A stretch of 64,000 nucleotides of DNA. Source: Gautieria morchelliformis (Eukaryota; Basidiomycota; Agaricomycetes; Gomphales; Gomphaceae). The notes beneath the pieces were generated by a model. That model did not search any database. It saw nothing but the letters and a program-made list of their open reading frames with translations, and was not told the DNA's origin. Numbering within the stretch: position 1 is the stretch's first letter; each line of letters begins with the position of its first letter. Made by a program: the position numbers and the translations under genes. Below are positions 1 to 52,958 of the stretch, one piece after another. The stretch is taken from the NCBI GenBank assembly GCA_015179125.1, contig WHVA01000192.1, forward strand, positions 62,001 through 126,000. The letters run 5' to 3'.

Positions 1-226
1 ATGAACACCTAAAGGGGTTGCATTAGGAAGGTGATGGGGCCAGTGATGAACCACCAAGCCGGTCCAAGGACATCGATTGTGCTTTGATGGTGTGGCTATG
101 GTGAATGGTGTGAACAGCGAAGATCGGTTGCCGAACCTGGCGAAGGGTGATTGGAGCGAACATGGAGGTGGAGTGAGGAATGGGAGGACAGAGTGACTGA
201 GTATAGGAAATAAATGGGTCATGACA
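1..226 (-). repeat. L1 LTR, 5' part, cut by window edge
   Basis: Read on the minus strand this begins TGTCATGACC, the 5' end of the L1 LTR family, and matches the first part of the L1 copy at 17510 base for base over long stretches. Only about 226 bp lie in the window; the rest of the LTR would lie before base 1. No coding sequence is seen. Confidence 0.8.
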
Positions 227-5294: not shown

Positions 5295-5296
5295 GT

Positions 5297-7465: not shown

Positions 7466-8158
7466 TGTTACGTATCGAGATTTCCACTAAGTCGGAACTG
7501 GAAAGGACGGCGGCTTCAACTTATAGGTTGCGCCCCCAATGAACTATCGTCCTAGGTATTTTGGAAATGAGTCGGAAGTCGGAAAGTACTGAACCAAAGG
7601 TTTGGTCAGAACTTCAGTCAGAACTGAGGCGGAGGGCAGAAGACAGAAGGCGGAGAGAGACTGAGATCTTGCTAGACTCGCTGTGCTAAGAACAGGAGAT
7701 GGAGTGAAGGAAATCAAGTATCGAAGGCGATTATCTGATTGCAGAATAAGAGACATACATGACAGGCTTTTATACAAAGAGCTGAGACAACAGGTAATGA
7801 TATGGTACTAAGCAAATTCCGGAGGAAGCGGAAGTCGAGTAGACAATGCGTGGGAACTAACTATTGGGAACAAGGGGACTACAAGGGGGGTTCAGGGTAA
7901 GGTAGAACAATGGCAAAGAACAAGGGGTCGGGAAAACATATCTGACAACGAATTACAAGGGTGGCCGGATATATGGTCTTGATGGACGGTGAGGTGGGTC
8001 CGGTGGGTCTGAGTAATAGAGTTGAAAGAACAAGGAAAATGTACAAGGGGCGGAATGTCGGAAATATTGGAGGGGCGGAATGTGTTGTGGAAATATCGGA
8101 GGGGCGGAAAGGTGTGGCGGAACTGAGGGTCGGAAGTTGGAAATGAACGGTCGTAACA
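7466..8158 (-). repeat. L3 3' LTR
   Basis: A 693-bp LTR, TGTTACGACC...CGATACGTAACA in element orientation. It differs from the 5' LTR by a 14-bp indel (around 7638) and scattered substitutions, so the insertion is not recent. A purine tract (AGAAGGGAGATAC in element sense, 8159-8171) adjoins it, as expected for plus-strand priming. Confidence 0.9.
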
Positions 8159-8281
8159 GTATCTCCCTTCTAAGGTCGAGCCCCGTGAGACCACAGGTTG
8201 GATCACGTGACCTGTGAACAAACGCGTCGGAGTTCTAAAAAAATAGGCTGAGGAACAAACACGTCTTCTTTCCATTCCATC
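8159..8281 (+). promoter_or_regulatory. Putative promoter of the opposite-strand gene
   Basis: The 123 bp between the 3' LTR and the ATG at 8282 contain the palindrome TCACGTGA (about 8204-8211), an E-box core, and an A-rich CTAAAAAAATAGG near 8234-8246 that could serve as a TATA-like element. The assignment is inference; the adjacent LTR could equally supply antisense promoter activity. Confidence 0.35.
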
Positions 8282-9527
8282 ATGAGTGCTCCAGTAGACT
8301 TCTCCAAAATGTCCAGCGCCGAGATGAAACAGCATTTCGCTGATATGCTTGCGCAAAAGGAATTGGCCGAAAAACGCGAGGCTGAGGAAGCTGCGCGGAA
8401 AGAGAAGGAACGTCGGGAGAAAGAGTGGAAGGAACAGGAGAGGAAGGACCGCGAGCGCCGCGAGGAGGAGGAGCGCGTCCGTGAAGAGAAACGGAAACGG
8501 AACACGGCACGGAAAGCTGCTGCGGACAAGGCTGCTGCAGAGAAGGCTGCTGCAGAGAAAGCTTCTGCGGAGAAGGCGGAAAGGGAACAGGTGAGTCGGG
8601 AATGTCTGGCGGAAAAGTTCTTGAATCAACTAAAAGTTCTTCCAGAATAATGTTCAGGACAAGTCAGAGTCAGACTCGGAAAGTTCGGCGGAAAGTACAC
8701 CGTCTCCCGAAGGAAAAGGGAAGCAAAAGGAAATCGCTACTCTGGTGAACCTTGTGGCCGAACGGAAACGTCGGGCGGACACATTCCAGAAGGCTCGGAA
8801 GAACAAGTTGGGTCGGATGTTGGAACTGCGTGAACTGGGGCCGGAGAATCCCGCAACTAAGAAGCGGAAAACGCGGGACGGCGATGAGGAGGAAAAGGCT
8901 CCTTGCGACCCATGCGAGTCTAAGGGGGTGGATTGCACGTGGTCGAGTAATCCACGGGAAACATCCTGCGATCAGTGCCGTGACAGGAAGAGACGCTGCG
9001 TTGTGGACGGGTGCGCTTCGAGGCTGGAGCGAAAGAAACAGAAGGTTGAGGAGTCGAATCCGAAGTCAGAACCGGGACCGAGCGGAGGGAGGGCTGAGGA
9101 ATTGTTTCCGGTAACCGGAAAATCGGGACAGGCAGTGTTGAACCGATTTACCATGTCCTATCCGCTCCTTGACATTGCCGGGTCGCTGAGGGCCATGCGG
9201 GAGCAGCAGCGCGAAATCCGGGATATCATGATCGACATGGCAGAAGTTCAGCAGCATCAGGTTCTGTCAATTCAGAACCAGATGACTGTCATGTCTACAG
9301 TCCTGCAGCAGTTGACGCGGGAAATGCGGTGGCGGAATGATCTGGTCCGGGACCGAATGGATGCGCGGCTGCGGGAGCAGGGAATTGGGGCGGAAGCGGG
9401 TCCGAGCGGGGGGGCGGAAACGAGGGAAAGGGTGGAAACAGAGTTGGTGAGTGTCGAGGTAGGAGAGGCGGAAAAAGAGCCGGAAGCGGAAGAAGAGGTT
9501 GAGGCGGAAACGATGAGGGAGGAGTAG
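8282..9527 (+). CDS. Opposite-strand Zn2Cys6-like / coiled-coil protein of L3 chromovirus (2 exons)
   Basis: Exon 1 is 8282-8590 and exon 2 is 8646-9527. The 55-nt intron (8591-8645) has donor GTGAGT, a CAACTAAA branch-like site and acceptor TTCCAG, and splicing keeps phase 0. Product 396 aa. Residues ~20-100 are a highly charged Glu/Lys/Arg coiled coil. A six-cysteine cluster follows at C190, C193, C200, C211, C214 and C221 (CX2CX6CX10CX2CX6C, the Zn2Cys6 spacing) with basic RDRKRR before the last Cys. A helical Gln/Met-rich segment (~285-340) and an acidic tail follow. It runs antisense to gag-pol and converges on the pol stop (9657) with ~130 bp between. The L2 chromovirus carries a gene of the same architecture in the same place. 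The likely role is nuclear, DNA-binding or element regulation; this is inference from the cluster. It appears intact although the element is defective. Confidence 0.75.
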
Positions 9528-9656
9528 GGTATCAAAAGACTTGTAGATAATTTCTTGAAGTGTCGGAAAATAGAGTAACGAAAAAATAATCGGATTTTAC
9601 CAATGACTTGAGAACTGTAAGAAAGCAATGGGCGTCGGAAATGAGGTCGGAATTGA

Positions 9657-9800
9657 CTAGGGCGTGGAAATGGGGCCAGGCTTATCAGGATAAGACTTGT
9701 GGAAATCAGAGATGAGGTCAGAGGCGTGGTCTAGTTCCGTGGTGGAAATCCACGAGGTCTCTTCGTCGGTGTTTTCATAGCCTGCCCACTTGACTAGGTA
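9657..9800 (-). pseudogene. L3 pol: C-terminal chromodomain remnant
   Basis: The minus strand reads QYLVKWAGYENTDEETSW...LDHASDLISDFH and stops at TAG (9657-9659). This aligns with the chromodomain end of the L2 pol (YLVRWTGYEGTDEETSW...LDHASELVTDFH). It is joined to gag at about 9800 in a different frame, marking a deletion that removed the rest of pol. The region 9528-9656 between it and the antisense gene holds no feature I can see. Confidence 0.75.
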
Positions 9801-10564
9801 CTGGAGTTGGCAGCGGTGAGTTCATTTTCCGCATCGGCTTCCATGTCAAATGGTCCAAAGTTGCTGCGGAGTTCGGAAATGAAGTTGTGGTAATCGTCGG
9901 CCCAGTCGATGAGAGCGAACGGATCCATGAGGGCGGGTTCGAAATAGTCGAGAGCCGTGCCTCGGAGATAGGAAAGGGCATAATTGACCTTCCGTTCGTC
10001 GTCGGGAAAGGTGTCGGGACGATCACGGAAATTGAGTTGTAGCTGGACCAGAAACGGCTGGAGCTTCTTGGGGTCGGAACCGTCGAACTGATCTGGTTCG
10101 CGGACCTTTGTCTTGGGTCGTGGTGGTGCTTGGGCCGGGCGCTGGAATTGTCCAGCTAGCATGGCGATGGCTTGTGCAAGATCCGGAACTGGCGCGGGCG
10201 GAATTGGGTTGGCGGGAATCTGAGGTGGGATTGGAGGTGGAGGACCGCCGGGTGGGCCGCCATGAGGGCCGCCTGGAGGTGGTCCTGGTGGAGGTGGTGG
10301 TGGTGGAGCTGGGTGTTGGAATGACGCTGCTGTTTGTTCGCCGCTGCTACTCGTCGAGTTTCCATCATAGTCGGGATTGTTGTCGGGATTAGCGTCGGGA
10401 ACTTCTTCGAATCGTTGTGGAATAGCATCGGAGAGCTCATCGTCAGCACGAGAGCTGCCGGAGGGTTCTGCGTGCCTTGGTGCTGCGGATCTAAGGCTGC
10501 CAAAATAAGAGAGAGCTTCGACAGCTCCTGCTCGAGCTGAAGTAGCTGTGGTACGAGGAGGCAT
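9794..10564 (-). CDS. L3 gag, N-terminal 256 residues (truncated)
   Basis: Starts at the ATG 10564, 34 bp inside the 5' LTR. There is an Ala/Ser-rich head, a Pro/Gly-rich stretch (~80-120), then a retrotransposon gag core with KVREPDQFDGSDPKKL, LNFRDRP, a YALSYLRGTALDYFEP motif and LRSNFGPFD. The core aligns closely with the L2 gag (KVKEPDSYDGTDQAKL, LNFRDRP, YAISYLSGSALQYFEP). The frame ends at the deletion junction with pol. The C-terminal half and zinc knuckle are absent, so particle assembly would need helper Gag. Confidence 0.8.
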   Translation of the reverse strand: MPPRTTATSARAGAVEALSYFGSLRSAAPRHAEPSGSSRADDELSDAIPQRFEEVPDANPDNNPDYDGNSTSSSGEQTAASFQHPAPPPPPPPGPPPGGPHGGPPGGPPPPIPPQIPANPIPPAPVPDLAQAIAMLAGQFQRPAQAPPRPKTKVREPDQFDGSDPKKLQPFLVQLQLNFRDRPDTFPDDERKVNYALSYLRGTALDYFEPALMDPFALIDWADDYHNFISELRSNFGPFDMEADAENELTAANSST

Positions 10565-10584
10565 AGTGATAGTTATCGGGTGGG

Positions 10585-10595
10585 AATCAGATAAT
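10585..10595 (-). promoter_or_regulatory. Self-priming primer-binding site of L3
   Basis: In element sense ATTATCTGATT lies two bases after the 5' LTR. It is the exact complement of AATCAGATAAT within the LTR (10848-10858), which lies 34 nt after a TATAAAA (10892-10886, minus strand). This is the same Tf1-type arrangement as in L1 and L2. Confidence 0.75.
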
Positions 10596-10597
10596 AC

Positions 10598-11276
10598 TGT
10601 TACGTATCGAGATTTCCACTAAGTTGGAACTGGAAAGGACGGCGGCTTCAACTTATAGGTTGCGCCCCCAATGAACTATCATCCTAGGTATTTCGGAAAT
10701 GAGTTGGAAGTCGGAAAGTACTGAACCAAAGGTTTGGTCGGAACTTCAGTTGGAACTGAGGCGGAGGGCGGAGAGAGACTGAGATCTTGCTAGACTCGCT
10801 GTGCTAAGAACAGGAGATGGAGCGAAGGAAATAAAGTATTGAAGGCGATTATCTGATTGCAGAATAAGAGACATACATGACAGGCTTTTATACAAAGAGC
10901 TGAGACAACAGGTAATGATATGGTACTAAGCAAATTCCAGAGGAAGCGGAAGTCGAGTAGACAATGTGTGGGAACTAACTATTGGGAACAATGGGACTAC
11001 AAGGGGGGTTCAGGGTAAGGTAGAACAATGGCAAAGAACAAGGGGTTGGGAAAACATATCTGACAACGAATTACAAGGGTGGCCAGATATATGGTCTTGA
11101 TGGACGGTGAGGTGGGTCCGGTGGGTCTGAGTAATAGAGTTGAAAGAACAAGGAAAATGTACAAGGGGCGGAATGTCGGAAATATTGGAGGGGCGGAATG
11201 TGTTGCAGAAATATCGGAGGGGCGGAAAGGTGTGGCGGAACTGAGGGTCGGAAGTCGGAAATGAACGGTCATAACA
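10598..11276 (-). repeat. L3 5' LTR
   Basis: 679 bp, with the same ends as the 3' LTR. It contains a TATAAAA box at 10892 (minus strand) and the predicted RNA start near 10858. It lacks 14 bp present in the 3' LTR. Confidence 0.9.
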
Positions 11277-14200
11277 TGTTCCACGATCAATTATGGAATG
11301 AACACGACCATTAAATTTGGTCATGAAACATACGATGAATATTTCGACATAGCAAACATCGAATATTACGACGCGATCTTAGGGACACCGTTCCTAAGGA
11401 GATTTGGCATCACCCTGGACTTTTCAAGCCCAGGGACGATCCGCAAGGGGAACAAAATAATCCCCACAGACAAGGTCTCATTCGACGATGATAAATTGAC
11501 GAACGAGGGCAAGGGGCCAAGGGTGAGCAGGGTCACCCGGGCGCCGAAGCCAAACCTGGCTCATTGAAGCCAGGAGGACGAGTCGCATAATGACTCGTCC
11601 TCGAGCTCGCCCTACAATCATAGGGAGAGGCGCTCTCACCTGACGGTGAAAGCGATAGGAAAAAGAAAAGCGGTTCCGCGCACTGCAGGACCAAATAGAC
11701 GCACACAGTGCCTAATGGCTTCTAAGCCAACCACCACCATCATCCTCACGGATGATGACCTTCCTTGCCTCCGCAAGGAATGGATGGAAAGGATCACTGA
11801 CCTAGTCAGTGGGATTCCATTAGAACTCCCACCTCTGCGGGAGCTCAACCATGAGATCAATCTCATCGATCCCAACAAACACATGTGGTATCGACTACCA
11901 AAGTGCACCGAACATTGCTGAGAGGAACTGTTGGCAAAGATAGAACAATACACCACTGCAAAGTGGTGGATTCCGGCAGTTGCACAGCAGGCCGTACCCA
12001 TGCTGTGTGTGCCGAAGACGAATGGTACACTACGGACCAACTTCAATCTGCGCCAGCAGAATGAGAACACGGTGAAGGACGTCACACCCTTCCCGGGTCA
12101 GGATATCATCCGCAGTGACATGGCTCACTGTCGGTATCGCACAAAACTCAATATGTCTGAAGCATATGAGCAGATCCGGATTCATCCGGATCACGTAGCA
12201 AAGACTGCCTTTGCCATGATCCTTGGCACGTTTAGGAGCCAAGTGATACAGATGGGAGACTGCAACACCCCATCGACGTTCCAATGGCTGATGACACCCA
12301 TTTTCTGTGACTGCATAGGTCGCTTCGTCCATGTCTACATGGACAACATCCTCATTTTCTCGCTCTCAATACAAGAGCATGAGGAGCACCTCTATAATAT
12401 CTTTGACAGACTGAGGAAGAACCACCTTTTTCTGAGCAAGAAAAAGGTTGACCTCTATTCCATCTGAATGGAGTGCCTTGGCCACATCATCGATGGCCAA
12501 GGAGTACATGCCAATGAGGATAAGATATAATGCATCTGCGAGTGGTGTTGGCCGCGGACATTCAACGACGTCCAGCGTTTCCTCGGGCTAGTACAGTATC
12601 TGGCACATTACATGCCAGATGTTAGCACATACACGACCCCACTATTGGGCTGTGTGCGTAACAACCATCCATTCGAATGGACTCCACTACTGGACAAATG
12701 CTAGCAAAGCATTAAGGCATTGGCCTGTAAGGCCCCGATCCTGCATCCATAGGACGCACGGTGCCCAGAGCCAATCTGGGTGATCACCGATGGGTCAGAA
12801 GCTGGCATCGGTGCAGTTTACGGCCAAGGCCCCGACTGGAAAACCTGTCGGCCAGCCGGCTTCTTGTCAAAGAAGTTCAGTGTTGCTCAGCAACACTACT
12901 GGACTCACGAGCACGAGACAATTGTGGTGCTTGAGGCTCTCATGAAATGGGAGGATAAACTGCTGGGACGAAGGTTCACCCTCATCACAGACCACAAAGG
13001 GCTCGAATAATTTGAGACCCAGAAGAGCCTATCTGACCGCCAGGTCAGATGGTGGGAGTTTCTATCCCGGTTCAACTTCAACACCGTACATGTTGACAGT
13101 GTAGAGAATAAGGTAGCAGACTGCCTGTCGCGCTACTACGAGAGCAACATGAGTGATGACAATCACCCGGACCATGTCTTCGTAAATGCAGATGCGCGTT
13201 TAGACCCGGAAGGTGAGCTACTGCCCACCTACCAGTATATCAAGCTGTGGACAGCGGCAACGAGATGGTCTAACCGCCTCGCAGAGAAGACAGAGGCGTG
13301 GATAATGGAATCCGCCGCATTAAACGAGGGCTCACAAAAGCCCGTGAATGGCGCCGCATCACGCGACGACGATGACGATGATGTCAGAGTCATCGCTGCA
13401 GGTAATGATGGCGCGCCCCTGCGCCGGAGCATTGAACAAGGCGTAGACCTGTCCAAGGTCTTACGAGATGCGTACTATAGGGACGCCATGTTCTCAAAGA
13501 TCATGGAGCACCTGGACACGCACCTGAGATTTGGAATCCAGGACGGGCTGATTTGGACAAAGAATCAGCTCAAGAGAGACATCATTGCCATCCCCCGATT
13601 TGTTCTTCAGGGGGGAAGAAGGCTGATCAAAATAATCATTGATCGAGCACACCAGATAGTCGGTCACTACGGCCATCTGAAGACATCGAACTACGTTTGA
13701 AGGTCATACTGGTGGCTGGGCATGAGCCCAGACATCGAGTCATTCTGCACATTGTGTGCAAAGTGCCAGATGAAGAAAACCAGGCCATAATGGCCCAAAG
13801 GCTTACTACACAGCCTACCCATTCCGGATAGGCCATGGCAGTCGATTGGCATTGACTTCATGGGGCCCCTGCCCCAATATAATGACTGTGACTACCTGAT
13901 GGTAGTCATCGATCGACTAACATCGCACGTCCACCTCGTCCCAACCACAACGAGCGTGTCAGCCAGGGGAGTAGCCTGGCTGTTTCTGAAGGAGATTGTT
14001 TGACTCCATGGAGTCCCAGACTCCATCATCTCGGATAGAGACTCGAAGTTCACATCGATCTTCTGGCGTGAACTACAGCGACTCATGGGGACCAAACTCC
14101 TCATGTTGACTGCCTTCCATCCCCAAACGGATGGAGCGACCGAGTGTGCAAACCGCTCGATTGGACAGATATTACGTGTGGTCGTCAGAGACGATCAGAA

Positions 14201-14666
14201 GGATTGGGCATTGAAATGCCCAATGGTTGAGGTCGCCCTCAACAGCAACGTCAGCACAACCACAGGGTTCGCACCCTTCGAGCTGAACCACGGCTATATG
14301 CCGCGGATAGATTTCCCCATAACCGCGGACACCCCGTTTAAGGGGATGGCCCGGTTCGCACATCAGGCAAGATGGAACCTGATGGTGGCACATGATGCAA
14401 TCATTGAGCATCGAGTGACGCAAACGTTTCATGCAAACAAGAAACGTATGGCGAGCGACAGGTACGCGGCCAACGACCGCATCTACCTCTCGACCCAAAA
14501 CCTAACTCTCCCGAAAGGAAGAGCCAGAAAACTAGTTCCATGGTATATCAGACCATACCGCATCGTCAAGGCACATAACGACGCCTCGACGGTGACCCTT
14601 GAGCTTCCTGACAAGCTGAAAAACCGTCACATATCACTGGTCTTCCATTCAAGCCTCGTACAATGA
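11277..14666 (+). pseudogene. Element T pol: protease end, RT, RNase H, integrase (nonsense-riddled)
   Basis: One reading frame runs through the whole region. It shows the protease end (YDAILGTPFLRRFG), RT with VPMLCVPKTNG, LNMSEAYEQIRIH and YMDNILIF (the YxDD motif reads YMDN), and RNase H ITDGSEAGIGAV. An integrase follows with an HX..H..CTLCAKC finger (~13650-13770), SIGIDFMGPLP, a SDRDSKF motif and HPQTDGATECANR. At least five in-frame stops (11919, 12465, 13008, 13698, 14664) and others interrupt it, yet the frame never shifts. Several stops sit where Arg (CGA) or Gln is expected, fitting C-to-T change. The element is dead. The segment 14667-14975 carries no recognised domain. Confidence 0.85.
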
Positions 14667-17770: not shown

Positions 17771-18306
17771 TGTAAGGACCCGGCCTTTGGCCGGCTACTT
17801 ACCGGTAGAACCTTCTTCCGAGCCCGAGCCTTGTGATATTCATGCCCGAGTACATATGATACTTATCCGTGCCCGAGCCCAATCTCGAGCTTGAACTCAT
17901 ATCCGACCTTGATCCTATGCCCGTATCCCCTTAGTTACTGATTCCGCTCCATCACGCATCATTCGTATATTACCTCGCCCTGACCTCCACTAATCTGTTC
18001 GCCCCTGACTTGCACCTCGTCCGTATATAACCCCCTTGTATGCATTCCTACTCCTCAGTCTGAAAATCAACTATCGTGTCCCTTCGATCCCTAGCTAGTT
18101 TCTACGCCTCACCTCTTAAGCCAGAACCTCGCCTCTTATTCGTTTACCTCCGAAATTGGGACTCGTGCGTAGGGTCGGCGCAGCACATAAGCTGAAGCCA
18201 AGTCCCTCTCCGACTTCCCCATCCAAACCTCGCCCCGTAACCTCGGACCTTGCCTCGGGTTTCGTCCCCGACCTCGGTCAACCTTACGACGGATCGTACC
18301 GTAACA
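17771..18306 (+). repeat. L2 5' LTR
   Basis: 536 bp, TGTAAGGACC...CCGTAACA. It carries TATATAA at 18024-18030; the predicted transcript start is CAGTCTGAAAAT at 18056. It is followed by the PBS at 18309. Confidence 0.96.
18024..18067 (+). promoter_or_regulatory. L2 core promoter and predicted RNA start
   Basis: TATATAA at 18024-18030 lies 32 nt before C18056. The 12 nt from 18056 (CAGTCTGAAAAT) are exactly complementary to the site just after the LTR, which places the RNA 5' end here by analogy with Tf1, where the first bases of the mRNA are the primer. Confidence 0.7.
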
Positions 18307-18349: not shown

Positions 18350-19582
18350 ATGTCCATGATAACTCGTTCTCGCACCCTTCGGGGTATCTCAGAACAGCGA
18401 CGTTTCTCGGAAGCCCCCGATGACTCACCCCCGTCCCCGGGGATACCCCTCGCAGACCCCGCCGAGCCTAGTAACAAAGGCAAAGGTAGGGCTAACCTCG
18501 GTGACCCTTCAGGTGATCCAGGTGATGGCTCTAGAAGTTCTGACAACGATCAGGACCTCCCCAACCTTCCGCCCGAGGACCCCGGTGACCTCGAGGACAA
18601 CGAGCTTATGCGTCGAGTGTTGATCAAACTCGCGAAACCTCGCGAATCCGAAGCACGAGCCAAGGTCAAGGAACCGGATAGTTATGACGGTACTGACCAA
18701 GCCAAGCTTCGCACTTTCTTCCTTCAATGTGTACTCAACTTCAGAGATCGCCCCACCGCGTTCAAGACTGGGGCCTCAAAGGTGCAGTATGCTATTTCTT
18801 ACCTGTCCGGCTCGGCTCTGCAATATTTCGAGCCGGCGATTCTCGGCGAAGTCCAACCCGAGCCAGATTGGCTCGAGGACTGGGACAGTTTCAAGGCCGA
18901 GCTCGAGCTTAACTTCGGCCCATACGACAACGCGGCCCAAGCCGAGATTGACCTCGAGAAGATCGTTATGAAAGAGCACCACAAGGCCGCGCGATTCTTT
19001 ATCGACTTCGCCCGAGCTTCGACTCGGACTCAGTGGAACGACGCGGCCCTCCGACACTTTGCCTACAAGGGCTTGGCTAAACGGATCAAGGACGACTTAC
19101 TTCACTTCCCTCGATTCCGCAGCCTCGCCGAGCTTAGGAACTTCGCGCTGGAATGCGATAGCCGTTACTGGGAGCGAAAGGAATACGACGCCATGATCAC
19201 TGGTCGTAGCTCCCAGCCTGCACGCACCACTAATCAGTCCAGTAGCAATGCCACTAACAACCACCAGTCTTCCAGTGGTTCCAATAACAATAAGAACCGC
19301 AACAAGACTAACAACAGCGGCAAGGGTTCCAACAACAACAACTCTTCGAACAACAAGAGCCAGCCCGACATTTCGAGCAAACTCGGGAAGGATGGCAAAC
19401 TGCTTCCCGAGGAGCGCCAACGTCGGGTCGACCAAGGGCTTTGTCTGCTTTGCGGCACCAAAGGTCACGTCATCAAGGACTGCCCGAAGAACAAGTCTAC
19501 CAATAGTAGCGGTTCTAAAGGTCGGGCAACGAAGACCCCTAACGAGGGGACTTCAGCCTCCATTACGGAGGTGAAAAAATAG
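18350..19582 (+). CDS. gag: L2 gag polyprotein (capsid and nucleocapsid)
   Basis: 410 aa, ATG 44 nt after the LTR. It forms the virus-like particle in the cytoplasm and packages the element RNA. The N-terminal ~100 residues are Pro/Asp-rich. The capsid core (~105-290) shows KVKEPDSYDGTDQAKL, VLNFRDRP, ISYLSGSALQYFEP and LELNFGPYD. An Asn/Ser-rich low-complexity linker (~300-345) precedes one zinc knuckle C365-X2-C368-X4-H373-X4-C378. It ends with Lys-Lys-stop immediately after a run of six A, where the pol frame takes over by a -1 shift. It is homologous to the L3 gag but clearly diverged. It appears intact. Confidence 0.95.
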   Translation: MSMITRSRTLRGISEQRRFSEAPDDSPPSPGIPLADPAEPSNKGKGRANLGDPSGDPGDGSRSSDNDQDLPNLPPEDPGDLEDNELMRRVLIKLAKPRESEARAKVKEPDSYDGTDQAKLRTFFLQCVLNFRDRPTAFKTGASKVQYAISYLSGSALQYFEPAILGEVQPEPDWLEDWDSFKAELELNFGPYDNAAQAEIDLEKIVMKEHHKAARFFIDFARASTRTQWNDAALRHFAYKGLAKRIKDDLLHFPRFRSLAELRNFALECDSRYWERKEYDAMITGRSSQPARTTNQSSSNATNNHQSSSGSNNNKNRNKTNNSGKGSNNNNSSNNKSQPDISSKLGKDGKLLPEERQRRVDQGLCLLCGTKGHVIKDCPKNKSTNSSGSKGRATKTPNEGTSASITEVKK

Positions 19583-19584
19583 GT
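19571..19584 (+). promoter_or_regulatory. Putative -1 ribosomal frameshift site gag/pol
   Basis: Gag ends GTG AAA AAA TAG (19571-19582). With the stop in the A site, the Lys tRNA in the P site can slip from 19577-19579 to 19576-19578 with perfect re-pairing, giving ATA GGT AGC... in the pol frame. That frame is open across the gag stop and for at least 20 codons upstream. It is not a classic X XXY YYZ heptamer. Confidence 0.55.
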
Positions 19585-22500
19585 AGCAACCTCGGAACCA
19601 CACGATCCGAGGATTGCGGTAACCTCACCCGTGTGCTCAGACTCAGCGCCGCTTCTCATTCATTGTCCAAAGATTCCCTTAATGTAGATCTAACCTCGCC
19701 TTCGCTGCCCAACGTCGCTTTTGTTGCATTAGTTGACTGCGGGTCCTCAGACTGTTTTATTGAATCCAGATTTGTCCAGAAGTACTCCATGCCTGCTTAT
19801 CCTGTCTCTCCTATACCCTTGAAACTATTTGACGGTAGTACTAACACTACCATTACCCAAGCTCTAGACCTCTGCATTTGCTTTCCGACCGGCGAACAAC
19901 AATGGGTTACCTTCTACGTAACCTCGCTCGACTCGAGTTGCTCGATGGTACTTGGCCACAACTGGCTCACCCGCTACAATCCGTCGATTGACTGGGTATT
20001 GGGCAGTATTACTTTCAAGACCATCGACCTAACAACGACTCCAGCGACCCCGGCGACGTCAGCCCGCTCAGCTTCGGCTACGACTTCGACCTCGCCTACG
20101 GCATCTTCGCCCCCGCCTCCGACCTCGCTTCCGAAGTTGCAAGCACCCCTCGTTTCCCTAATCAATGCACCCGCTTTCATGCGCGCATCTAGATTGGAAG
20201 GGTCCGAAGTGTTTCAGCTCAATTTGGCTTCGCCTGAGCTCCTCGCCAGAGGGGCAACATCGGGAGGAAGCTCTTCCGAGCTTCCTGAGAACATTAAGAA
20301 ACATGTTCCTGAAGAATACCACGAATTTGCAGATGTGTTCAGCAAAGCACGCGCTGACACTCTAGCTCCCCACCGACCTCACGATATCAAAATCAACCTC
20401 GAAGAAGGGACCTCGCCACCGATCGGTCCCATCTACTCTCTCTCAGCTTCCGAACTCAAAGCACTTCGCGAGTTCATCGACGAGCATTTAAACATCGGCT
20501 TCATCCGACCTTCACGCTCGCCTCATGGTGCACCGGTATTGTTCGTTCGCAAAAAAGATGGCTCACTTCGGTTGTGTGTCGACTTCCGAGGTTTGAACAA
20601 AATCTCAAAAAAAGATCGGTATCCATTGCCATTGATTGCTGACTTACTTGATGCTCCAAAGAATGCTCGCACCTATACGAAAATTGACCTTCGTCACGCT
20701 TACCACCTCGTACGGGTGGCCGAGGGTGACGAATGGAAAACCGCCTTCAGGACTCGCTATGGGTCTTTTGAATGGTTGGTTATGCCATTTGGTCTCACTA
20801 ATGGCCCTGCTGCCTTCCAGAGATTCATGAACGAGGTGTTCGCCGACCTTTTGGACGTTTGTGTGGTGGTATACTTGGACGACATTCTAATCTACTCCAG
20901 TGACCCCTCCAAACATGTGGAACATGTCAAGGAAGTCTTGCGACGACTACGACTCAACAACCTCTTCGCCAAAGAAGACAAATGCGAGTTCCATCGCGAC
21001 TCGGTTGAATTCCTCGGCTACATACTCTCTCCCGAGGGCCTCACTATGGCAGATGACAAGGTAAAGGTCATTCAAGACTGGCCTGAACCTCGCAAAGTTC
21101 GCGACATCCAATCCTTCCTCGGCTTCGCCAACTTCTACCGACGTTTCATTCACAACTACTCCGACATCACCATTCCTCTCACCCGACTTACCCGCAAGGG
21201 TACCCCTTGGAATTTTTCCGAGGATTGTCGACGGGCTTTCAACCTGTTGAAGAGGGCGTTCACTACCGCTCCTATCCTTACTCACTGGATTCCTGACCTT
21301 CCACTGATCGTAGAGACTGATGCATCAGATTATGCCTTAGCGGCAATCTTATCTCTACAAACCTCGGAAGGCGAACTTCATCCCATCGCTTTCCACTCCC
21401 GCACATTCACCTCTACCGAGCTCAACTACGATGTTCACGACAAGGAGCTCCTCGCCATTTTTGAAGCCTTTCAACGCTGGCGACACTACCTAGAGGGCTC
21501 AGGCGAACCAGTTGACGTTATCACCGATCACAAGAACCTCGAATACTTTTCAACTACGAAGCTCTTGACCCGTCGACAAGCTCGGTGGTCGGAATACCTT
21601 TCCCAGTTCAACCTCGCCATACGCTTCCGACCAGGTCGCCTCGGAACGAAGCCTGACTCTCTCACTAGACGATGGGACGTCTACCTTAAAGAGGGGAATA
21701 GCGACTATGCCACCATAAACCCGCAGAACCTACGGCCAGTGTTTACTCAGCACCAGCTGGCATCGTCCCTTAGAGCTACTAACCTCGCTCCCATCGTGCT
21801 CCGAGCCGCTTCACTTCTTGATACCGAGCAGATCCGAGCTGACATACTAGCGAACCTCCCCTCGGACCCCATAGCCAAGTCGCACCTCGGCTTGGTTAAT
21901 GACCCGAGGTGGACCACAGACCCCGAGGGTTTCCTCAAGCTTGACAACCGAACCTATGTTCCAGCGGCCCAAGACCTTCGACTTCGCATCCTGCAATACA
22001 AGCACGATCACATTCTCTCGGGACACTTCGGGGTCAACAAGACCTTGGAGCTGATCCGACGAGACTATACTTGGCCAGGGATTAGATCCTTTGTCAAGGA
22101 GTATTGCAAGACGTGTACCACTTGTATGCGAAGCAAGCCGCAACGTCACAAACCCTATGGTCTCCTCAAACAACTTCCTGTTCCCGAGAAACCTTGGAAT
22201 TCCATATCTATGGATTTCATTGAGCAACTCCCCCCTTCGTCCGAGTTCACCTCCATCCTAGTGATTGTTGACCGCTTCACTAAGCAGGTTATCTTCATTC
22301 CAACCACAGACAAGATAACCTCGCAAGAGCTCGCTCACCTCTTCGTCCTTCATGTCTTTTCAAAGCATGGAGTTCCCTCGCACGTCACCTCGGACAGGGG
22401 TTCCGAGTTCGTCTCGCATTTCTGGCGTTCTCTAGGGAAAGCCTTGGACATGCGGTTGCATTTCACCTCGGGATATCATCCCGAGGGTGACGGTCAGACC

Positions 22501-23292
22501 GAGCGTGCTAACCAAACTTTGGAACAGTACCTCAGGATCTATTGCAACTATCAGCAGTCAAATTGGGCTTCGCTCCTTCCCCTAGCCGAGTTCGCTTACA
22601 ACAACGCGCCTAGCGCAACCACCGGCATCTCCCCATTCTTTGCCAATAAAGGCTACCATCCGAACCTCGCAGTTCACCCCGAGCGCGACCTCGCCTCGGC
22701 ACGAGCCCGAGACTTCGTGGTTGACCTGGACGAGCTTCACCAAGAACTTCGCCACGCCATCCTCGAGGCTCAGAAAACTTACCAAGCCTCGGCCGATGTT
22801 CGTCGCAAGCCCGCTCCTGATTTCCAAGTAGGATCCCTCGCCTTTGTGAAGGCACAGTACTTTCGAACAACTCGGCCTACCAAGAAGCTCGCCGAGAAGT
22901 TCTTGGGTCCTTTTGAGATCATTTCCCGAGCGGGTACTCACTCCTTCACCCTTCGACTTCCAGAACACATGCATTCAGTCCATCCGGTCTTCCACGTATC
23001 CATGCTCGAACCAGCCTCGCCCAACACCATACCAAACCGATTTCAGCCGCCTCCGCCCCCAGTCGTTATCGACGGCGAACCCGAGTTCGAGGTTTCCGAA
23101 ATCCTCGACTCGAAGATCGATAATAGACGCAAGAGCTGCAAATTACTCTACCTTGTTAGGTGGACTGGTTACGAAGGTACCGACGAAGAAACCTCGTGGA
23201 TCCTCGCTTCCGAGCTTGATCATGCCTCGGAGCTGGTCACGGATTTCCATGACTCTTACCCGGGCAAGCCCGGCCCCTTGACTGCTCTATGA
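19579..23292 (+). CDS. pol: L2 pol polyprotein: protease, RT, RNase H, integrase, chromodomain
   Basis: Continuous frame entered by a -1 shift from gag; no ATG is needed (numbering below is from the GTG at 19633, giving 1219 aa). The protease site is LVDCGSSD (D35; DCG instead of the usual DSG). RT has FRGLNKISKKDRYPLP and YLDD at 414-417. RNase H starts VETDASDYA (D563) and includes VITDHKNLEYF. Integrase has an H-H-C-C finger (H791...CKTCTTC) and D861, D921, E957 with the D-X35-E spacing. A C-terminal chromodomain (~1150-1210, YLVRWTGYEGTDEETSW) can direct integration to chromatin marks, as known for chromoviruses. Element order PR-RT-RH-IN places it in Ty3/gypsy. No stops or shifts are seen; all catalytic residues are present. 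Confidence 0.96.
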   Translation: MGSNLGTTRSEDCGNLTRVLRLSAASHSLSKDSLNVDLTSPSLPNVAFVALVDCGSSDCFIESRFVQKYSMPAYPVSPIPLKLFDGSTNTTITQALDLCICFPTGEQQWVTFYVTSLDSSCSMVLGHNWLTRYNPSIDWVLGSITFKTIDLTTTPATPATSARSASATTSTSPTASSPPPPTSLPKLQAPLVSLINAPAFMRASRLEGSEVFQLNLASPELLARGATSGGSSSELPENIKKHVPEEYHEFADVFSKARADTLAPHRPHDIKINLEEGTSPPIGPIYSLSASELKALREFIDEHLNIGFIRPSRSPHGAPVLFVRKKDGSLRLCVDFRGLNKISKKDRYPLPLIADLLDAPKNARTYTKIDLRHAYHLVRVAEGDEWKTAFRTRYGSFEWLVMPFGLTNGPAAFQRFMNEVFADLLDVCVVVYLDDILIYSSDPSKHVEHVKEVLRRLRLNNLFAKEDKCEFHRDSVEFLGYILSPEGLTMADDKVKVIQDWPEPRKVRDIQSFLGFANFYRRFIHNYSDITIPLTRLTRKGTPWNFSEDCRRAFNLLKRAFTTAPILTHWIPDLPLIVETDASDYALAAILSLQTSEGELHPIAFHSRTFTSTELNYDVHDKELLAIFEAFQRWRHYLEGSGEPVDVITDHKNLEYFSTTKLLTRRQARWSEYLSQFNLAIRFRPGRLGTKPDSLTRRWDVYLKEGNSDYATINPQNLRPVFTQHQLASSLRATNLAPIVLRAASLLDTEQIRADILANLPSDPIAKSHLGLVNDPRWTTDPEGFLKLDNRTYVPAAQDLRLRILQYKHDHILSGHFGVNKTLELIRRDYTWPGIRSFVKEYCKTCTTCMRSKPQRHKPYGLLKQLPVPEKPWNSISMDFIEQLPPSSEFTSILVIVDRFTKQVIFIPTTDKITSQELAHLFVLHVFSKHGVPSHVTSDRGSEFVSHFWRSLGKALDMRLHFTSGYHPEGDGQTERANQTLEQYLRIYCNYQQSNWASLLPLAEFAYNNAPSATTGISPFFANKGYHPNLAVHPERDLASARARDFVVDLDELHQELRHAILEAQKTYQASADVRRKPAPDFQVGSLAFVKAQYFRTTRPTKKLAEKFLGPFEIISRAGTHSFTLRLPEHMHSVHPVFHVSMLEPASPNTIPNRFQPPPPPVVIDGEPEFEVSEILDSKIDNRRKSCKLLYLVRWTGYEGTDEETSWILASELDHASELVTDFHDSYPGKPGPLTAL

Positions 23293-23394
23293 TCGTTTTC
23301 CCTGTTAATCCCCATGACCCCGGTAGTTAGATGACAAAAACCCTTCAAAACAAAATCGATAAAATCCAAAAAAATCTATTATTCCATTTACTAG

Positions 23395-24538
23395 TTATTC
23401 CACCATCCTCATATCCTCTCCCTCGCTCTCCTCGCTCCCCTCGCCGGACTCCTCCTCATTACTGCTACTACTTCGCTCCACCAGACCCCCATGTCCCCCA
23501 TAATCCGCCAAGTCTCTCGCCCCCTGCATCCGCTTCAAATAATTCCGCCTCCTCCTTATCCTCATGAACTCCACATCCGCCCTGTTCATCCTGTCATTCG
23601 CAGCCCTAAACTCCCCTAGCAACTCGCACACCCTCTCCCCAACCTCGCCAACCTTCTGTCCCACATCCCTCACCGCCGTTATCAACTCCCTCATCTCCGC
23701 ACTTCGCTCCGATCTTTTCGTCTTCTTGTCCTTTTTCGCCCTCCGACCTCCAACCTCGGTTTCCTCCCCCTCAGTCTGCCTCGCTTCCCCGACCTCTGTC
23801 TCCTCACGCTGCCTCACTTCCCCAGTCTCCTTACCCTTCTCCTCGCTCAACCTCGCTTCCATCCGCTCTACCCTCATCTCGAGGTTCCTCTCGACCCAAT
23901 CACTCGAGTCGTTGTCATCCTCATCCACCTCGTCTCGAACCTTGGCCCCTTTCCTCGGCCTCGGTTCACCCTCGGCCTCCTCGCTCCTCGCTCGCTTCTT
24001 GCTCGCTACACCCACCTGACCTTTCCCTGGGGTCGCCTTGCTGCGGCGACCTTGGGCGATGCTACAGCCCAAGGAACGGGTCCTGCACCACACGCAAGCA
24101 CCCTGGTCGGCGAGGCCGAAGTTGAGACTAACGGCCCGAAGGCACGTATAGTCGCGCTCTTCGCAGCGCGCGCACCTCGCCTCGGCCTTGGTCGCGAGCT
24201 GCCACTCGCGAGGTCCCCCGTCGGCGAGCTTGTACCCGTATAGGGACAAGTCAGTCGGGTGGTATGAAAACAACATGCGCTTATACTGTACAAATCAGCA
24301 GCGTCCATGACCAGCCAACAACGGTACTCACCTTTTTTCCATTCGGCCCTTCCTGCCACGGCTGCCGCATGTCAATGGCCCCCGTCTCATCAATTGGCAA
24401 GGTGCCAACCTCGGGTCGATCCTCGGGCACAACCTCGCCCGAGGCTCCGTTCGCCGCAGACAGCAATGTCTGGTCGAACACGTTGTTTGTGCTGTCCTCG
24501 TCGACGGCTGAGTTGAAGAGGGCTTGAGGGCGCACCAT
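23395..24538 (-). CDS. Opposite-strand Zn2Cys6-like protein of L2 chromovirus (2 exons)
   Basis: Exon 1 is 24538-24332 (69 codons from ATG), the intron is 24331-24286 (46 nt, GTGAGT...CTGAT...TACAG), and exon 2 is 24285-23395. Splicing is in phase 0 and the product is 365 aa. Residues 70-105 are aromatic-rich (YHPTDLSLYGYKLADGG). A cysteine cluster follows: C107, C110, C117, C133, C136, C143 (CX2CX6CX15CX2CX6C; the middle loop is longer than typical Zn2Cys6). A Lys/Arg patch (ASKKRARSEE) could be a nuclear signal. The rest is charged, probably helical, with a Ser/Glu tail. It is antisense to the element and convergent with pol (stops 102 bp apart). The matching gene in L3 has the same place, strand, cluster and intron presence but little overall identity. 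A nuclear DNA-binding role is inferred, not shown. The alternative is an incidental captured host transcription-factor-like gene. Confidence 0.78.
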
Positions 24539-24697
24539 ATTCGTTGGCAATGGGGTTCGCTGCCTCCTACCCACCCTTTTATCCAACCTCGGCTACGATT
24601 TAAGCTTCGCCTTTCCGGCTACTTAACATCGGACCGAGATCTAGATTCAAGGATAGGCGAACCCTGTTCACATTACGGCCTCGAGGGTCTCGGCCAT

Positions 24698-27395: not shown

Positions 27396-28667
27396 TGTCA
27401 TGACGCGTTTATCTCTCATACTCAGAAGCTCAGTTTTCCTACTTTCACCCCACCTTCGCGTTCATTCCGACCACCATTGTTATGTTCGGCAACCAACTCT
27501 CGCTGTTCGCGCCAACTACCACAGCCGCGCCGCCAAATGCACGATCGACGTCCTGGGGCTGACTCGGCAGTCATCACTGGGACTACCACCTCCTCTGCTC
27601 GACCCTCTTCCAATGGTGTTCGAATAGTTGGGTTGCCGTGACCTGTGCATTTCCTGCACCTTGGTACCCCATTTTCCCTTTCGCTACTCCTCCTCAGTGT
27701 TCGGTCGGTTTCGCCCTCCACCTCGACCTCTCCTCCCCTATGTCACCTCTTTTCGCCCTTCCTTGCATTTCGCCGAACAGATATTCGCTGCTCGCATCAT
27801 TCGCCAGCAGGCACACCATCAAAAACACGATCGATACCATTCACCCGGCATAACGGTTCATCATTAACCCCATCGTCTTCTTAATCCAACCCCATTGGGC
27901 GTTCGTATGGTCAAAGCATGTTCGCAGGACATCCCCTCCATAGGCCATGCGGAATCAATCCAGTAGACCAAGAGTCCGTGCAGGGTAGCATGTATGCGGG
28001 TCCCAAGACATGGTTTTGTCCATAAATGCTTTCGCCACCTTTACCCTCCGTTGTTTCATGTTCTCTCCCTTCTCACATTCTATTGTATGTTTATTTCATC
28101 TATGCTGTATCATGGCTGCGCACCCCTATCCAACCCTGACTTGTGACGGCCTCTTTCCTATTCGCTGATACCTTACGAGCATTCGATATAAGTAGTTTAC
28201 ATTCGCATGTATATTCCCCAGTTCAATTATCATATGTCGTCCATCTTGTGCAAACTTGACCTCGCTGTGATCATCGTCTTGAGCCTCTCCTTGAAGATTT
28301 CTATCTTCGACCAGCCAAGGACTTAGGCATCACTGGTGAGTTCTCATACTTCATCTTCATTACCTTAGCCTTCAAACTACTTTCTGTGCTGTTGGCGAAG
28401 GGCTCCTAAGGAGCACCTTCGCCAGCAAAGGGACCATCGAAACTTAGACAGCCCTTCCGCAATATCTTGCACGTTGCGTCGTCAAGTGCTGCGAGCTGTT
28501 TCGCTATGACTGTAGACAGGGCGAGCCCCGTTCGGGCAACCCCTTTGTTTCGTGAACATTCATCGGTTCACTTATTCGCCGAACGGCATACTTATTCGCA
28601 CAAGTTATTCGGGCATTCGTTGTGTTCACTAATACACGATATTAACGCCTAAAAACCAATCTTGACA
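27396..28667 (+). repeat. Solo L1 LTR with TSD GTTGT
   Basis: 1272 bp, TGTCATGACG...CTTGACA, flanked by perfect GTTGT (27391-27395 and 28668-28672). It contains the L1 promoter motifs (GATATAAG near 28185 and AGTTCAATTAT near 28220). It is inserted in the E gag gene. Confidence 0.93.
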
Positions 28668-29324
28668 GTTGTATCCTGCAAGCTCAAGTCACGCACTCTC
28701 CAGTTTTCTTCTTGTGTTGCAGTCAATCTGGGTGTTGCCCGAGGTGTTGACTTAGAATTTTGTGACGTCGAAGGTGCAGTCAAATTGGATGTAGCAGTGT
28801 TATTTACTTCAGCGTATTGAGACATGCAACGTGTGCGATCCTTTATCATCTCACGCAATGACTTTGAGTCCATATTGTCTAAGATACCGATCACCGATCA
28901 TGAACTGTCGATATGGGTCATCTTCATGATCCAGCATTGTTGGCAAGGGTCTGTCTACATGCCTAGATTTACCAGGTGGGCATGACGTCCATGAGGCTGG
29001 AATCTCGCCGTAGGGGTCTTCTGACCTATCATAGTTGGACCATGCTGCTGATTCACGACCAGCACATTCAGGAGTCTCCAGTGTGGGGTGGATTGTATGC
29101 TAATGCGGGCAGGGGGAGTCGTTGGTAGGCCAAGGCCACTAGTGATCAGAGAACCAGTCCTGGAAGTAGCGAGTGTCTGACTGTATGATGGCGTGGCCAT
29201 TTGGAGGCCTTACCTTACTCATGGTTCGTTGGGCAGGCAAGAATTCATCCTGACTTGACTCAGTGTTGACGTAGTCGTTGTCAACGTCAGCATCACTCAC
29301 AGAAAGGTGGCAACGGTCTGTCAA
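28668..29324 (-). pseudogene. Element E gag, N-terminal segment
   Basis: Three overlapping minus-strand frames make up the N-terminal region: one from 29324, one with SLITSGLGLPTTPPARIS (29200-28955) and one with MDSKSLREMIKDRTRC...ENWRVRDLSLQDTT (28894-28668). Frame changes near 29140 and 28950 show decay. The Pro/Ser/Thr-rich composition fits the N-terminus of Ty3 gag proteins. The assignment rests on in-frame continuity with the gag core at 17171-17509. Confidence 0.5.
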
Positions 29325-31325: not shown

Positions 31326-31650
31326 ATAAGTAGCTACTACGAATGTATGAATAAATCATCCAGAATCAACTGTTTCACCCCTTGAAGTCACTGTAGTCTT
31401 GTTTGATAGCTACAGAACTTAGATCTCGATAGTTTACTCCAATTCTTCATTGAGAGTTCACTATTACTGTTTATTCTAGACTAACTCAAAAGCGAATCCT
31501 TTTGACTTAGTTATTCCTTAGATTGACACCATTCTCTCGTCGACACGGTCACGTGACCTCCATCCATCAGTGCCAGACACGTCTCGAGAGGCTTAGTCAG
31601 CACACAGGAGAGGGACAAATATAGCGGTCCCAACCGCTGAGCAATAGAGA

Positions 31651-33853
31651 TTGTTTGCTAAAGGCACCACTAATATTTTAATCATAAAAATTTGTATGAT
31701 CACAGAGGGGGCATGTGCTATTCTCTATGCATCCAAGCTGCCAAAATATCTGTGGTCAGTAGCTGTCAAAATGACATCATATCTTCACGACAGATCACCA
31801 GCTCAGGCAAATAATGGAATCATGCCTCTTGAGTGTATTACTGGACAGAAGCCAGACCTTGTGCATATCAAAGTCTTTGGCTGTCCTGTCAACGTCGCAG
31901 TACCAAAAGAAAAACAAAAGAAATGGGAAAATCACTCACGCATAGGGTATATGGTAGGATACGAGCCTTATCCATCTGGGTACCTTATTTGGTATCCAGG
32001 GTCAAAGCAGATAGAGAAGGCTAGAGACATGTTCTTCCATGAGGAAGCTGTAGCACCTGATACACCCATGTTGTACGGTGAGGATGACGTGCCTTGCAAT
32101 GTTAATGAACGATGAAATGTAGTAAAAACTGTTAACGCGCCTGTTACGGCTCCCAAAGCACCCCCATGGCTTTTTATACACATCCCAGCACGTCCCACAC
32201 GTGTCAAATATGGTCCTGAAGATCAGGACCATGCCACAATTGAGGAAGTAATCCCAGGTCAGTCTGAACAAGATAAATCAATATTAGTGTTGAATGTACC
32301 TGATTTCCTACCAGGAACGATGCGATCTGGAAAGCAACGTGGAGCGATCCAATCCTTAATAGCAAGCGATGAACAATTCAAAGATTCTATAATGATGTCA
32401 GCCAACATTATAGGAGAACCAACGAGTATACACAACGTGTTGAACTTACCTGGAGAAGAGGGAGAAGCATGGGAATGTGCGTGGCAAGCTGAGTGGCAGA
32501 ATATGATTGACTATAAGGTGTTTAGTGCATCTGAAACCCCTCCACCAAATACGCAGGTGCTTAAGACTAGTACAGTGTTGCATACAAGCCACCATGACAA
32601 CAATATTACTAAGCACAAAGTTCAAATTGTCACTAAAGGGTACAGTCAGGTGCCCAGTCTCCATTATAATGAGACATACGCTCCAGTTATACACTGGGAA
32701 ACATTCTGAATCATTCTAGCTATTGGCGCAATATACAACACCAAAATACGTCAGTTCAACGTGAAGTCAGCCTACTTACATTGAGTAATTCAGGAGAAGG
32801 TGTGGGTTGAGCAGCTGGAAGGGTTTAAAGTGCCAGAGAAGGAACATTTGGCTCAAAGGTTGAAGAAGGCCCTGTATGGGACAAAACAAGGCGGGAATCA
32901 ATGGAGGAAGACCCTCAAAGAATTTATGGAGAAGACTCTTGAATGGACTTGCTCTGAACATGTCTGAGCAGTCTTCTTTAGGATGTGGGATCATGGATCA
33001 TGGGCCATCATAGGATTCTGGGTCGACGACGCTACATCAGTAGGTCACGAAAATTGACTCCTCAATCTTGAAGATGCATTTGGTCAATGATTTGGCATAT
33101 CAGGCCAAGGTGACATGCACCGGATTCTTGGGACACCTCTCAGTCAAGAGGCTAAGTCAAATTTAATCCATATCTCGCAGAAAAATTATATTGAGCACAT
33201 GGCGATAAGTACAAAACCGCCCAAAATTCCTATTCCCCTTGGCATCGATTTCTCCACAATAACAAATGATGACAAACAAAAGAATCAATCAAAGGATTTT
33301 CCCTACCGTGAGCTGATCAGCAGTCTAATGTTTGCTGCCACAGTATTATGCCCCAATATATCACACGCAGTTAATAAACTGGCATGATACTCATTGAATC
33401 CTAGTCCAGCTCATTGGAATCTAGCAAAACAAATCCTTCAATATCTTTATCATACTCCCGATCAAAGTCTATCACTCAGTGGAAAAAAATTTCTTTATCT
33501 GCGCATTCAGACACAGATTTTGCTGGAGACTCAGAGGATAGGAAATCGATGAGCGGATGTGCTCTATTTTTTGGTAATGGTGCCATTTCATGGCCCTCAA
33601 AGAAACAGAGCATTGTTGCTCTTTCTTCAACTGAATCCGAATATATCACACTCTTGGAAACTGTGCACGAGGTACTGTGGACACGTCGTCTTCTTCAAGA
33701 ACTAGGTTTTATCCTCGACGACCCTACCATCCTCTACGAAGACAATCAGGGAATGATTGCCTTCACTAACCACCAAAACGCCTTATGTCGTATGAAACAC
33801 ATCGATGTGAAGTACCATTTTATCAGGCATCAAATTGATGAGGGAACAATATA
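31651..33853 (+). pseudogene. Ty1/copia pol remnant 1 (integrase, RT, RNase H)
   Basis: Integrase C-terminus: KLPKYLWSVAVKMTSYLHDR, PLECITGQKPDLVHIKVFGC. RT: YKVFSASETPPPNTQVLKT, KVQIVTKGYSQV (GxSQ), RQFNVKSAYLH, ALYGTKQGGNQW. RNase H: SDTDFAGDSEDRKSMSGC, STESEYITL, LYEDNQGMIA and MKHIDVKYHFIR. The order integrase-before-RT identifies Ty1/copia. Stops at 32113, 32707, 32784, 33385 and a frame change near 33420 inactivate it. The 5' part (gag, protease) is missing. The stretch 31326-31650 is AT-rich and may include old copia LTR or leader; no gene is seen in it. Confidence 0.85.
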
Positions 33854-52650: not shown

Positions 52651-52958
52651 GATCTACTAGCTAGTGTTCCGAGTAGTATAAAGTAGCTATCCATGTATGT
52701 TGAATAACTAGACAGCATTCTCTGTCTACTTCCGTGTGATCCCCAGTCTGAAGTTCCTTGTAATGTTCACTGCCGCTCTTGCTTAAGTGGCACAGCCTAC
52801 CGAGACATTTGTACACTACTCCCACGTAGAGTAGCACCATCGAGTCCCATCCCAGAACTCTCACTTCATCCACAGGGATATCCGAGAATAGCATCGAGAT
52901 ATATTTCTACTGTCCCCAGACCAAACCGCTGAAGACCTTTTATCTACACGAGGGACCG

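Follow-up and report, generated by a model that had tools for sequence, protein, structure and literature searches.

We analysed a 64,000-nt stretch of contig WHVA01000192.1 of the truffle-like fungus Gautieria morchelliformis (the window, part of a 122-Mb assembly in 1113 contigs), which holds an intact chromovirus, L2, and a reduced copy of a second element, L3 (Table 1). L2 has gag, pol and a complete pair of long terminal repeats (LTRs) flanked on both sides by the target site duplication (TSD) TATCC. Because its two LTRs are identical, with no differences over 536 nt, the insertion is recent. The region between pol and the 3' LTR, about 1.4 kb long, carries a further gene on the opposite strand, in two exons and tail to tail with pol, with the two stop codons 102 nt apart. 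Its product of 365 amino acids (aa) has cysteines at aa 107, 110, 117, 133, 136 and 143.

Table 1. Features of the L2 and L3 elements in the window (positions counted from its first nucleotide).
Feature	Position	Strand	Remark
5' LTR of L2 (TG...CA)	17771..18306	+	TSD TATCC; same sequence as 3' LTR
L2 gag (Retrotrans_gag)	18350..19582	+	CCHC knuckle match under its cut-off
L2 pol: protease-like region, reverse transcriptase (RT), RNase H, integrase, chromodomain	19543..23292	+	overlaps gag, in another frame
Gap between pol stop (23292) and antisense gene stop	23293..23394	.	102 nt
L2 antisense gene, exon 2	23395..24285	-	cysteine cluster, basic stretches, predicted helices, acidic tail
Six-cysteine cluster CX2CX6CX15CX2CX6C	24064..24174	-	aa 107-143
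L2 antisense gene, intron	24286..24331	-	46 nt, phase 0; GTGAGT ... GCTGAT branch-like site ... CAG
L2 antisense gene, exon 1	24332..24538	-	207 nt; ATG at 24538
TATA-like GGATAAAAGG	24575..24584	-	37-46 nt 5' of ATG, in a well-conserved stretch; candidate own promoter
3' LTR of L2	24711..25246	+	
L3 LTR, 3' end of element	7466..8158	-	sense strand of element is minus
L3 antisense gene, exon 1	8282..8590	+	
L3 antisense gene, intron	8591..8645	+	55 nt, phase 0
L3 antisense gene, exon 2	8646..9527	+	CX2CX6CX10CX2CX6C, predicted helices, acidic tail
L3 gag-chromodomain remnant	9666..10567	-	most of pol missing in this copy
L3 LTR, 5' end of element	10598..11276	-	

The same gene is found at many other loci. 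Candidates were drawn from a genome-wide DNA search, of which the best 40 of 354 were scored, and from a protein search, of which the best 112 of 741 were scored, so that all copy counts are lower bounds. The L2 alignment comprises 43 copies, namely that of the window and 42 distinct others from 48 loci (L001 and L042 both represent the copy of the window, and L043, L058, L066 and L068 duplicate other loci). Since copies were picked by similarity to the antisense gene, those lacking it would escape, and the counts below apply to copies so chosen. The start codon and the GT..AG intron ends are retained in all 43, the GTGAGT donor in 41, and the six-cysteine pattern in 32; of the other eleven, nine have a frame shift or stop in the translated stretch, and L072 and L077 are one cysteine short. 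An uninterrupted spliced open reading frame (ORF) of more than 330 aa is present in 29 of the 43 (28 of them distinct), and the tail of pol is convergent with the gene, at most 400 nt away, in 41 of the 42 other copies. These results bear out the original prediction, made from the letters of the window, of an intact chromovirus with an antisense two-exon gene, one canonical 46-nt intron, a CX2CX6CX15CX2CX6C cluster and a 102-bp gap to a convergent pol.

The signals for splicing outlast the sequence around them. In four copies (L070, L072, L074 and L075) the intron differs at 29-46% of sites, yet the donor GT, the GCTGAY site and the AG are unchanged. Over the 60 nt 5' of the ATG, which contain TTRGATAAAAGG, only 7-13% of sites differ in the same copies, and this disparity supports a core promoter belonging to the gene itself, just inside the 3' LTR, from which the antisense transcript probably starts.

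Selection is also apparent at the protein level. The ratio of nonsynonymous to synonymous divergence (dN/dS) of the antisense gene is 0.14-0.24 in all but one of 18 pairs of L2 copies (dS up to 0.79), the exception being L072-L077 with 0.61, and the differences between L2 and L074 number 44, 41 and 110 at first, second and third codon positions. Since dN/dS in pol is only 0.04-0.09 (two comparisons), constraint on the antisense protein is the weaker of the two but still clear; for the pair L2-L074 antisense dN is 0.114 compared with 0.030 in the tail of pol (59 codons only), a ratio of about 3.8. Given a start codon and intron ends kept in every aligned copy, low dN/dS, and splice signals that survive divergence of the intron, we regard it as virtually certain that the L2 antisense gene is real and under selection. 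A chance ORF, or a mere antisense reading of a coding region, is ruled out by its place outside pol, the protein-level selection and the kept splice signals.

L2 and L3 are sister families. The integrase-chromodomain stretches of L2 and of L034, an L3-type copy, are 76.2% identical over 454 aa, and the description of a second, diverged chromovirus therefore has to be corrected, as the two are not deeply diverged. Their LTRs are, as had been stated, unrelated in sequence, giving no mutual match at a blastn E of 1e-5; matches to the two overlap in none of 78 loci and are adjacent where both occur. The L3 antisense gene (8282-9527, plus strand) encodes 396 aa. Across 34 aligned rows the ATG is kept in 33 and GT..AG in 33, 24 rows reach at least 371 aa, and dN/dS is 0.15-0.19 (three pairs, dS 0.7-1.4). 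Pol is convergent in 29 rows; of the remaining five, four are short stretches reaching only about 200 nt beyond the gene, and one (L062) belongs to the L2 set. An integrase-chromodomain stretch adjoins the antisense gene in other L3-type copies. Deletion derivatives that retain a gag-chromodomain part without RT and integrase, at 7466-11276 and at L022, have an intact antisense ORF. In one L3 subfamily, represented by L080, the antisense intron is 51 nt long and free of in-frame stops, so that an unspliced transcript would in principle be translatable as well.

L2 and L3 probably inherited a single antisense gene from their common ancestor and have kept it, while its sequence diverged much faster than pol. 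This is the simplest reading because both genes are real, spliced and under purifying selection, and occupy the same place in sister families; they have in common place, orientation, intron number, phase 0 and the order of the cysteines. An ancestral gene that was kept had already been proposed, and the sister relationship, the shared place and selection on both genes now speak for it, whereas protein homology is not significant. Alignment of the L2 and L3 proteins by hhalign gives an E of 0.11 and a probability of 0.5%, with all six cysteines aligned, and the residues around the cysteine skeleton give permutation p values of 0.06-0.24 (nine tests); that the proteins share little beyond architecture had been anticipated. 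By our estimate the 3.8-fold dN ratio predicts about 35-45% identity between the two antisense proteins, and far less is alignable, so that either an acceleration or two captures may lie behind the difference. Independent capture of two unrelated cysteine-rich genes in the same place would account for the missing alignment, for cysteine linkers of 15 residues in L2 and 10 in L3, and for an exon 1 that is charged and coiled-coil-like in L3 and not in L2. We consider it rather unlikely, since two separate captures, in families with 76% integrase-chromodomain identity, would have had to arrive at the same location, direction and spacing, at a single short intron in phase 0 that precedes the cluster, and at the same cysteine order and acidic end.

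Independent capture would also leave room for homologues among host genes, and free-standing homologues of this kind had been named as the finding that would speak for it. None turned up in three limited protein searches, which used shared five-residue words and of which one scored the best 7990 candidates. The searches returned one match, seven matches (one of them significant) and none, and significant matches were only short (16% and 7% of the query) and lay inside two predicted Gautieria proteins. In viral contigs, A1, pol and A2 gave no relative either, and these outcomes do not extend to collections of fungal genomes, prokaryotes or metagenomes. The idea that a wide agaricomycete protein family shares the motif order found no support in the last of the three protein searches and plays no part in our argument.

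Nor is the antisense gene a general feature of chromoviruses, as shown by another family whose pol is 41-42% identical to those of both L2 and L3 and in which four junctions and one pol stretch were examined. At none of the four junctions (L083, L085, L086 and L087) is there an antisense gene, and the 3' LTR begins about 100 nt past the chromodomain. The family appears to be abundant, since it fills the best rows of a Pfam chromodomain search (best 150 of 2658), mostly at 64.1 bits. At all four junctions the pol frame stays open past the chromodomain and enters the 3' LTR, TTCCGACTCC-like repeats being read as SSDSIS.

The make-up of the antisense protein is that of a dimeric DNA-binding regulator, of which metal and DNA binding would be expected. 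When cut out, the cysteine domain of L3 matches Pfam Zn_clus (PF00172, the fungal Zn(II)2Cys6 or Gal4-type domain) with 19.4 bits (E 0.0012) and that of L2 with 15.5 bits (E 0.019); the whole L3 protein scores 13.9 bits. The likeness to this family extends to two CX2CX6C half-clusters, a helical part and an acidic tail. Zn(II)2Cys6 domains have the spacing CX2CX6CX5-12CX2CX6-8C, which accommodates the linker of 10 in L3 but not that of 15 in L2. A further difference is that the halves appear swapped in L3, the first matching profile positions 15-33 and the second positions 1-13 (both weakly, E 0.008 and 0.06); the half-clusters of L2, taken singly, give no Zn_clus match. Basic stretches and the acidic end are evident directly in the protein, and a single-sequence structure model predicts two long helices in the charged C-terminal half of the L2 protein, in agreement with the charged helical C-terminus first described, and long helices likewise in L3. 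Neither the whole antisense proteins nor L2 exon 2 alone pass any Pfam threshold, and searches of solved structures returned one chance-like match for A1 (E 0.043) and none for A2.

We propose that the antisense gene is an accessory gene belonging to L2 itself (an aORF-3R, in the term used for plants), which would be transcribed towards pol and spliced once. The Zn2Cys6-like cluster and basic stretches of the protein, combined with an extended helical part and an acidic tail, suggest that it is probably nuclear and dimeric. Most likely it would regulate expression of the element itself by binding specific DNA sequences, either as an activator or as an anti-silencer. The Zn_clus-like domain, the long helices and the L3 derivatives that keep the antisense ORF support a regulator, and we put the probability that the product is a nuclear, DNA-binding one at roughly 0.55.

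Both elements are also marked by a pentamer that differs between the families. CCTCG occurs 79 times in L2, where dinucleotide shuffles lead to an expectation of 17.6 ± 4.1 (reverse CGAGG, 21), and TTCCG 48 times in L3, where 9.2 ± 3.0 are expected (reverse CGGAA, 5). The sites are spread across LTRs and genes alike (17771-25246 in L2, 7466-11276 in L3), and within the antisense genes they favour the sense strand of the element (20 vs 4 in L2, 19 vs 1 in L3). Shuffles of synonymous codons give the same picture, with 36 CCTCG in L2 pol against 15.0 ± 3.2, and, in the L3-type pol of L034, 16 TTCCG against 4.7 and 11 CGGAA against 2.6, L020 and L030 being alike. In a scan of all pentamers by synonymous shuffles, TTCCG and CGGAA come top in L3-type pol, CCGAG and CCTCG in L2 pol, and CGGAA in both the L3 antisense gene and the gene-less family; the family motif is second in the L2 antisense gene (behind AGCGA) and in L2 gag (behind CGAGC). 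A codon-use or dinucleotide artefact is ruled out by the shuffles. A third, LTR-like repeat family has a word of its own, TTCGC, counted 7, 13 and 8 times at 4300-5296, 27700-28669 and 2050-2830 (reverse), with about 1-2 expected (2.0 ± 1.2 for the count of 13), and more weakly (3 and 2) in two adjoining stretches.

The motifs are kept with turnover. In homologous pieces of pol, taken from unbroken matches of more than 300 aa (27 of 32 L2 loci, one place twice, and 17 of 30 L3 loci), L2 has 11.1 CCTCG and 0.03 CGGAA per kb, and L3 has 10.8 TTCCG, 7.1 CGGAA, 4.0 CCTCG and 0.0 CGAGG. When L2 and L034 are aligned by codon, none of 27 L3 sites is present in L2, and 16 of the 27 fall at identical amino acids; among the 18 L2 sites, a single one is retained and nine have disappeared through synonymous changes. 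For the antisense genes, sites shared, lost and gained number 12, 8 and 13 between L3 and L080, 13, 8 and 5 between L2 and L074, and 13, 8 and 1 between L2 and L075. From the enrichment over shuffles together with loss and gain across copies and families, the pentamer looks like a cis feature selected family by family, largely through synonymous codons.

The orientation of the pentamers bears on what the antisense protein might act upon. Cysteine clusters can bind RNA, and retroviral accessory proteins act on RNA or particles; a protein that acted on the element's RNA or Gag particles (in packaging, nuclear export or localisation) instead of on DNA would fit the sense-strand bias of both motifs, which persists even inside the antisense gene, as for an RNA signal. 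Both orientations are enriched, however, in L034 (16 and 11) and in the coding part of L084 from the gene-less chromovirus (12 TTCCG and 18 CGGAA), as for a site in double-stranded DNA, and the family that the cysteine domain resembles binds DNA. An action on RNA or Gag thus seems unlikely to us, and DNA remains the preferred target of the proposed regulator.

A further step would be self-recognition, in which the Zn-cluster protein reads the pentamer of its own family (CCTCG/CGAGG in L2, TTCCG/CGGAA in L3), written through LTRs and genes, protein and motif having changed together at the L2/L3 split. VANDAL transposons, which offer an analogy for this, are not LTR retrotransposons. In Arabidopsis they encode anti-silencing VANC proteins, VANC21 being placed in non-coding regions (PMC5735166). 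The resemblance lies in an accessory protein, encoded by the transposon, that varies between related families, in target motifs that differ between related elements and, for L2 and L3, in a family-specific short motif enriched in the element. Unlike the case of VANC21, the L2 and L3 motifs fill coding regions too, the motif is present in a family lacking the gene, and binding here would be hypothetical. A strict tie between pentamer and antisense gene is unsupported, since the gene-less family carries the motif of L3. A link between pentamer and protein is speculative, being a covariation seen in one pair of families, and we hold self-recognition to be distinctly unlikely.

Several observations weigh against a nuclear, DNA-binding regulator. 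Neither isolated cysteine domain reaches the curated Zn_clus cut-off of 21 bits, and the Pfam families matched by three whole L2 proteins look like chance, none with an E below 0.1. The single-sequence structure models are uninformative on the cysteine region, with a confidence below 50 there in L2, and two of the seven L2 sequences displayed (L072 and L077) lack one cysteine. Another abundant chromovirus has no antisense gene at any of the four junctions seen. Finally, the 60 nt 5' of the ATG show no special conservation in L3, differing at 28-32% of sites, with 31-35% in the intron; since they diverge like the intron, the argument for a promoter of the gene's own comes from L2 alone.

Antisense accessory genes of this kind are known from other elements. 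Human T-cell leukaemia virus type 1 (HTLV-1) has an antisense gene at its 3' end, HBZ, whose basic leucine zipper (bZIP) protein is a nuclear regulatory product. The likeness to L2, an antisense gene at the 3' end, is an analogy of position and role, with no relation in sequence claimed. An antisense gene, brtn, in the Botrytis element Boty was reportedly described by Zhao and colleagues in Virology in 2011. As cited in PMC7264820, PMC8365987 and PMC4227169, Boty of Botrytis cinerea has brtn and a CHROMO domain, and on these second-hand descriptions it resembles L2 as a fungal LTR element that combines such a domain with an additional gene placed between pol and the 3' LTR and running antisense to gag-pol; it differs in its ascomycete host, and brtn is compared by description alone. 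HBZ is mentioned in PMC11963269, which, with PMC7264820, also covers the plant aORF-3R genes, among them gene23 of maize Grande, TRP28 of Retand, and those of RIRE2 and PvRetro13. The passages concerned report a nuclear protein and a promoter of its own for gene23 and propose DNA binding for TRP28. The L2 gene has the aORF-3R placement, between pol and the 3' LTR and antisense to gag-pol. Retand is described as belonging to a non-chromovirus lineage, unlike L2, with a corresponding region of 2.9-6.6 kb as against about 1.4 kb, and the TRP28 domain (PF04195) is not among the Pfam matches of the L3 or L2 proteins (E up to 1 and up to 10, respectively). The additional ORFs of bdelloids provide a further case for comparison in the excerpts seen (PMC5408684).

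Such genes raise the possibility that the antisense gene acts as a brake, with either its protein or its transcript lowering sense expression and copy number, in an HBZ-like manner or through double-stranded RNA and small RNAs. The layout predicts convergent antisense transcription into pol, and for plant elements the relevant part of PMC7264820 relates a proposal that antisense transcripts feed small-RNA silencing. A brake made of transcript only would leave the protein-level constraint, the kept intron and the kept cysteine pattern unexplained, points that do not affect a brake exerted by the protein. Overall we judge a brake of either form improbable, and favour the regulator that would activate the element or protect it from silencing.

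Three other remnants lie in the window. A KDZ transposase remnant at 52830-54934 has a strong match to the CxC4 cysteine cluster and a KDZ match under the cut-off; a Ty1/copia-type pol fragment at 31648-32709 has a retroviral SH3-like domain and an RVT_2 match just under the cut-off; and a Gypsy-type pol remnant at 11940-14663, about 30% identical to L2 pol, is apparently split by the L3 insertion.

Extra genes on the reverse strand are thus already known, in Botrytis brtn, Grande gene23 and Retand. What looks new here is that the gene is spliced, belongs to a basidiomycete element and encodes a Zn2Cys6-like domain, with the halves of that domain reversed in L3. We found no antisense gene of a basidiomycete LTR element in the literature searched, which left most subscription journals outside, and the word 'antisense' is absent from the main text, as far as it was available, of 'LTR Retrotransposons in Fungi' (PMC3248453). 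What such accessory genes do is unsolved, in the gypsy elements of plants as in Botrytis. The genome of Gautieria offers a natural comparison, with two sister families whose antisense proteins and motifs differ greatly and an abundant related family that has no such gene, and the function therefore becomes directly testable, in terms of which DNA is involved, of which family, and with what effect. The family pentamers, kept with turnover, are a strong and unexpected cis signal whatever reads them.
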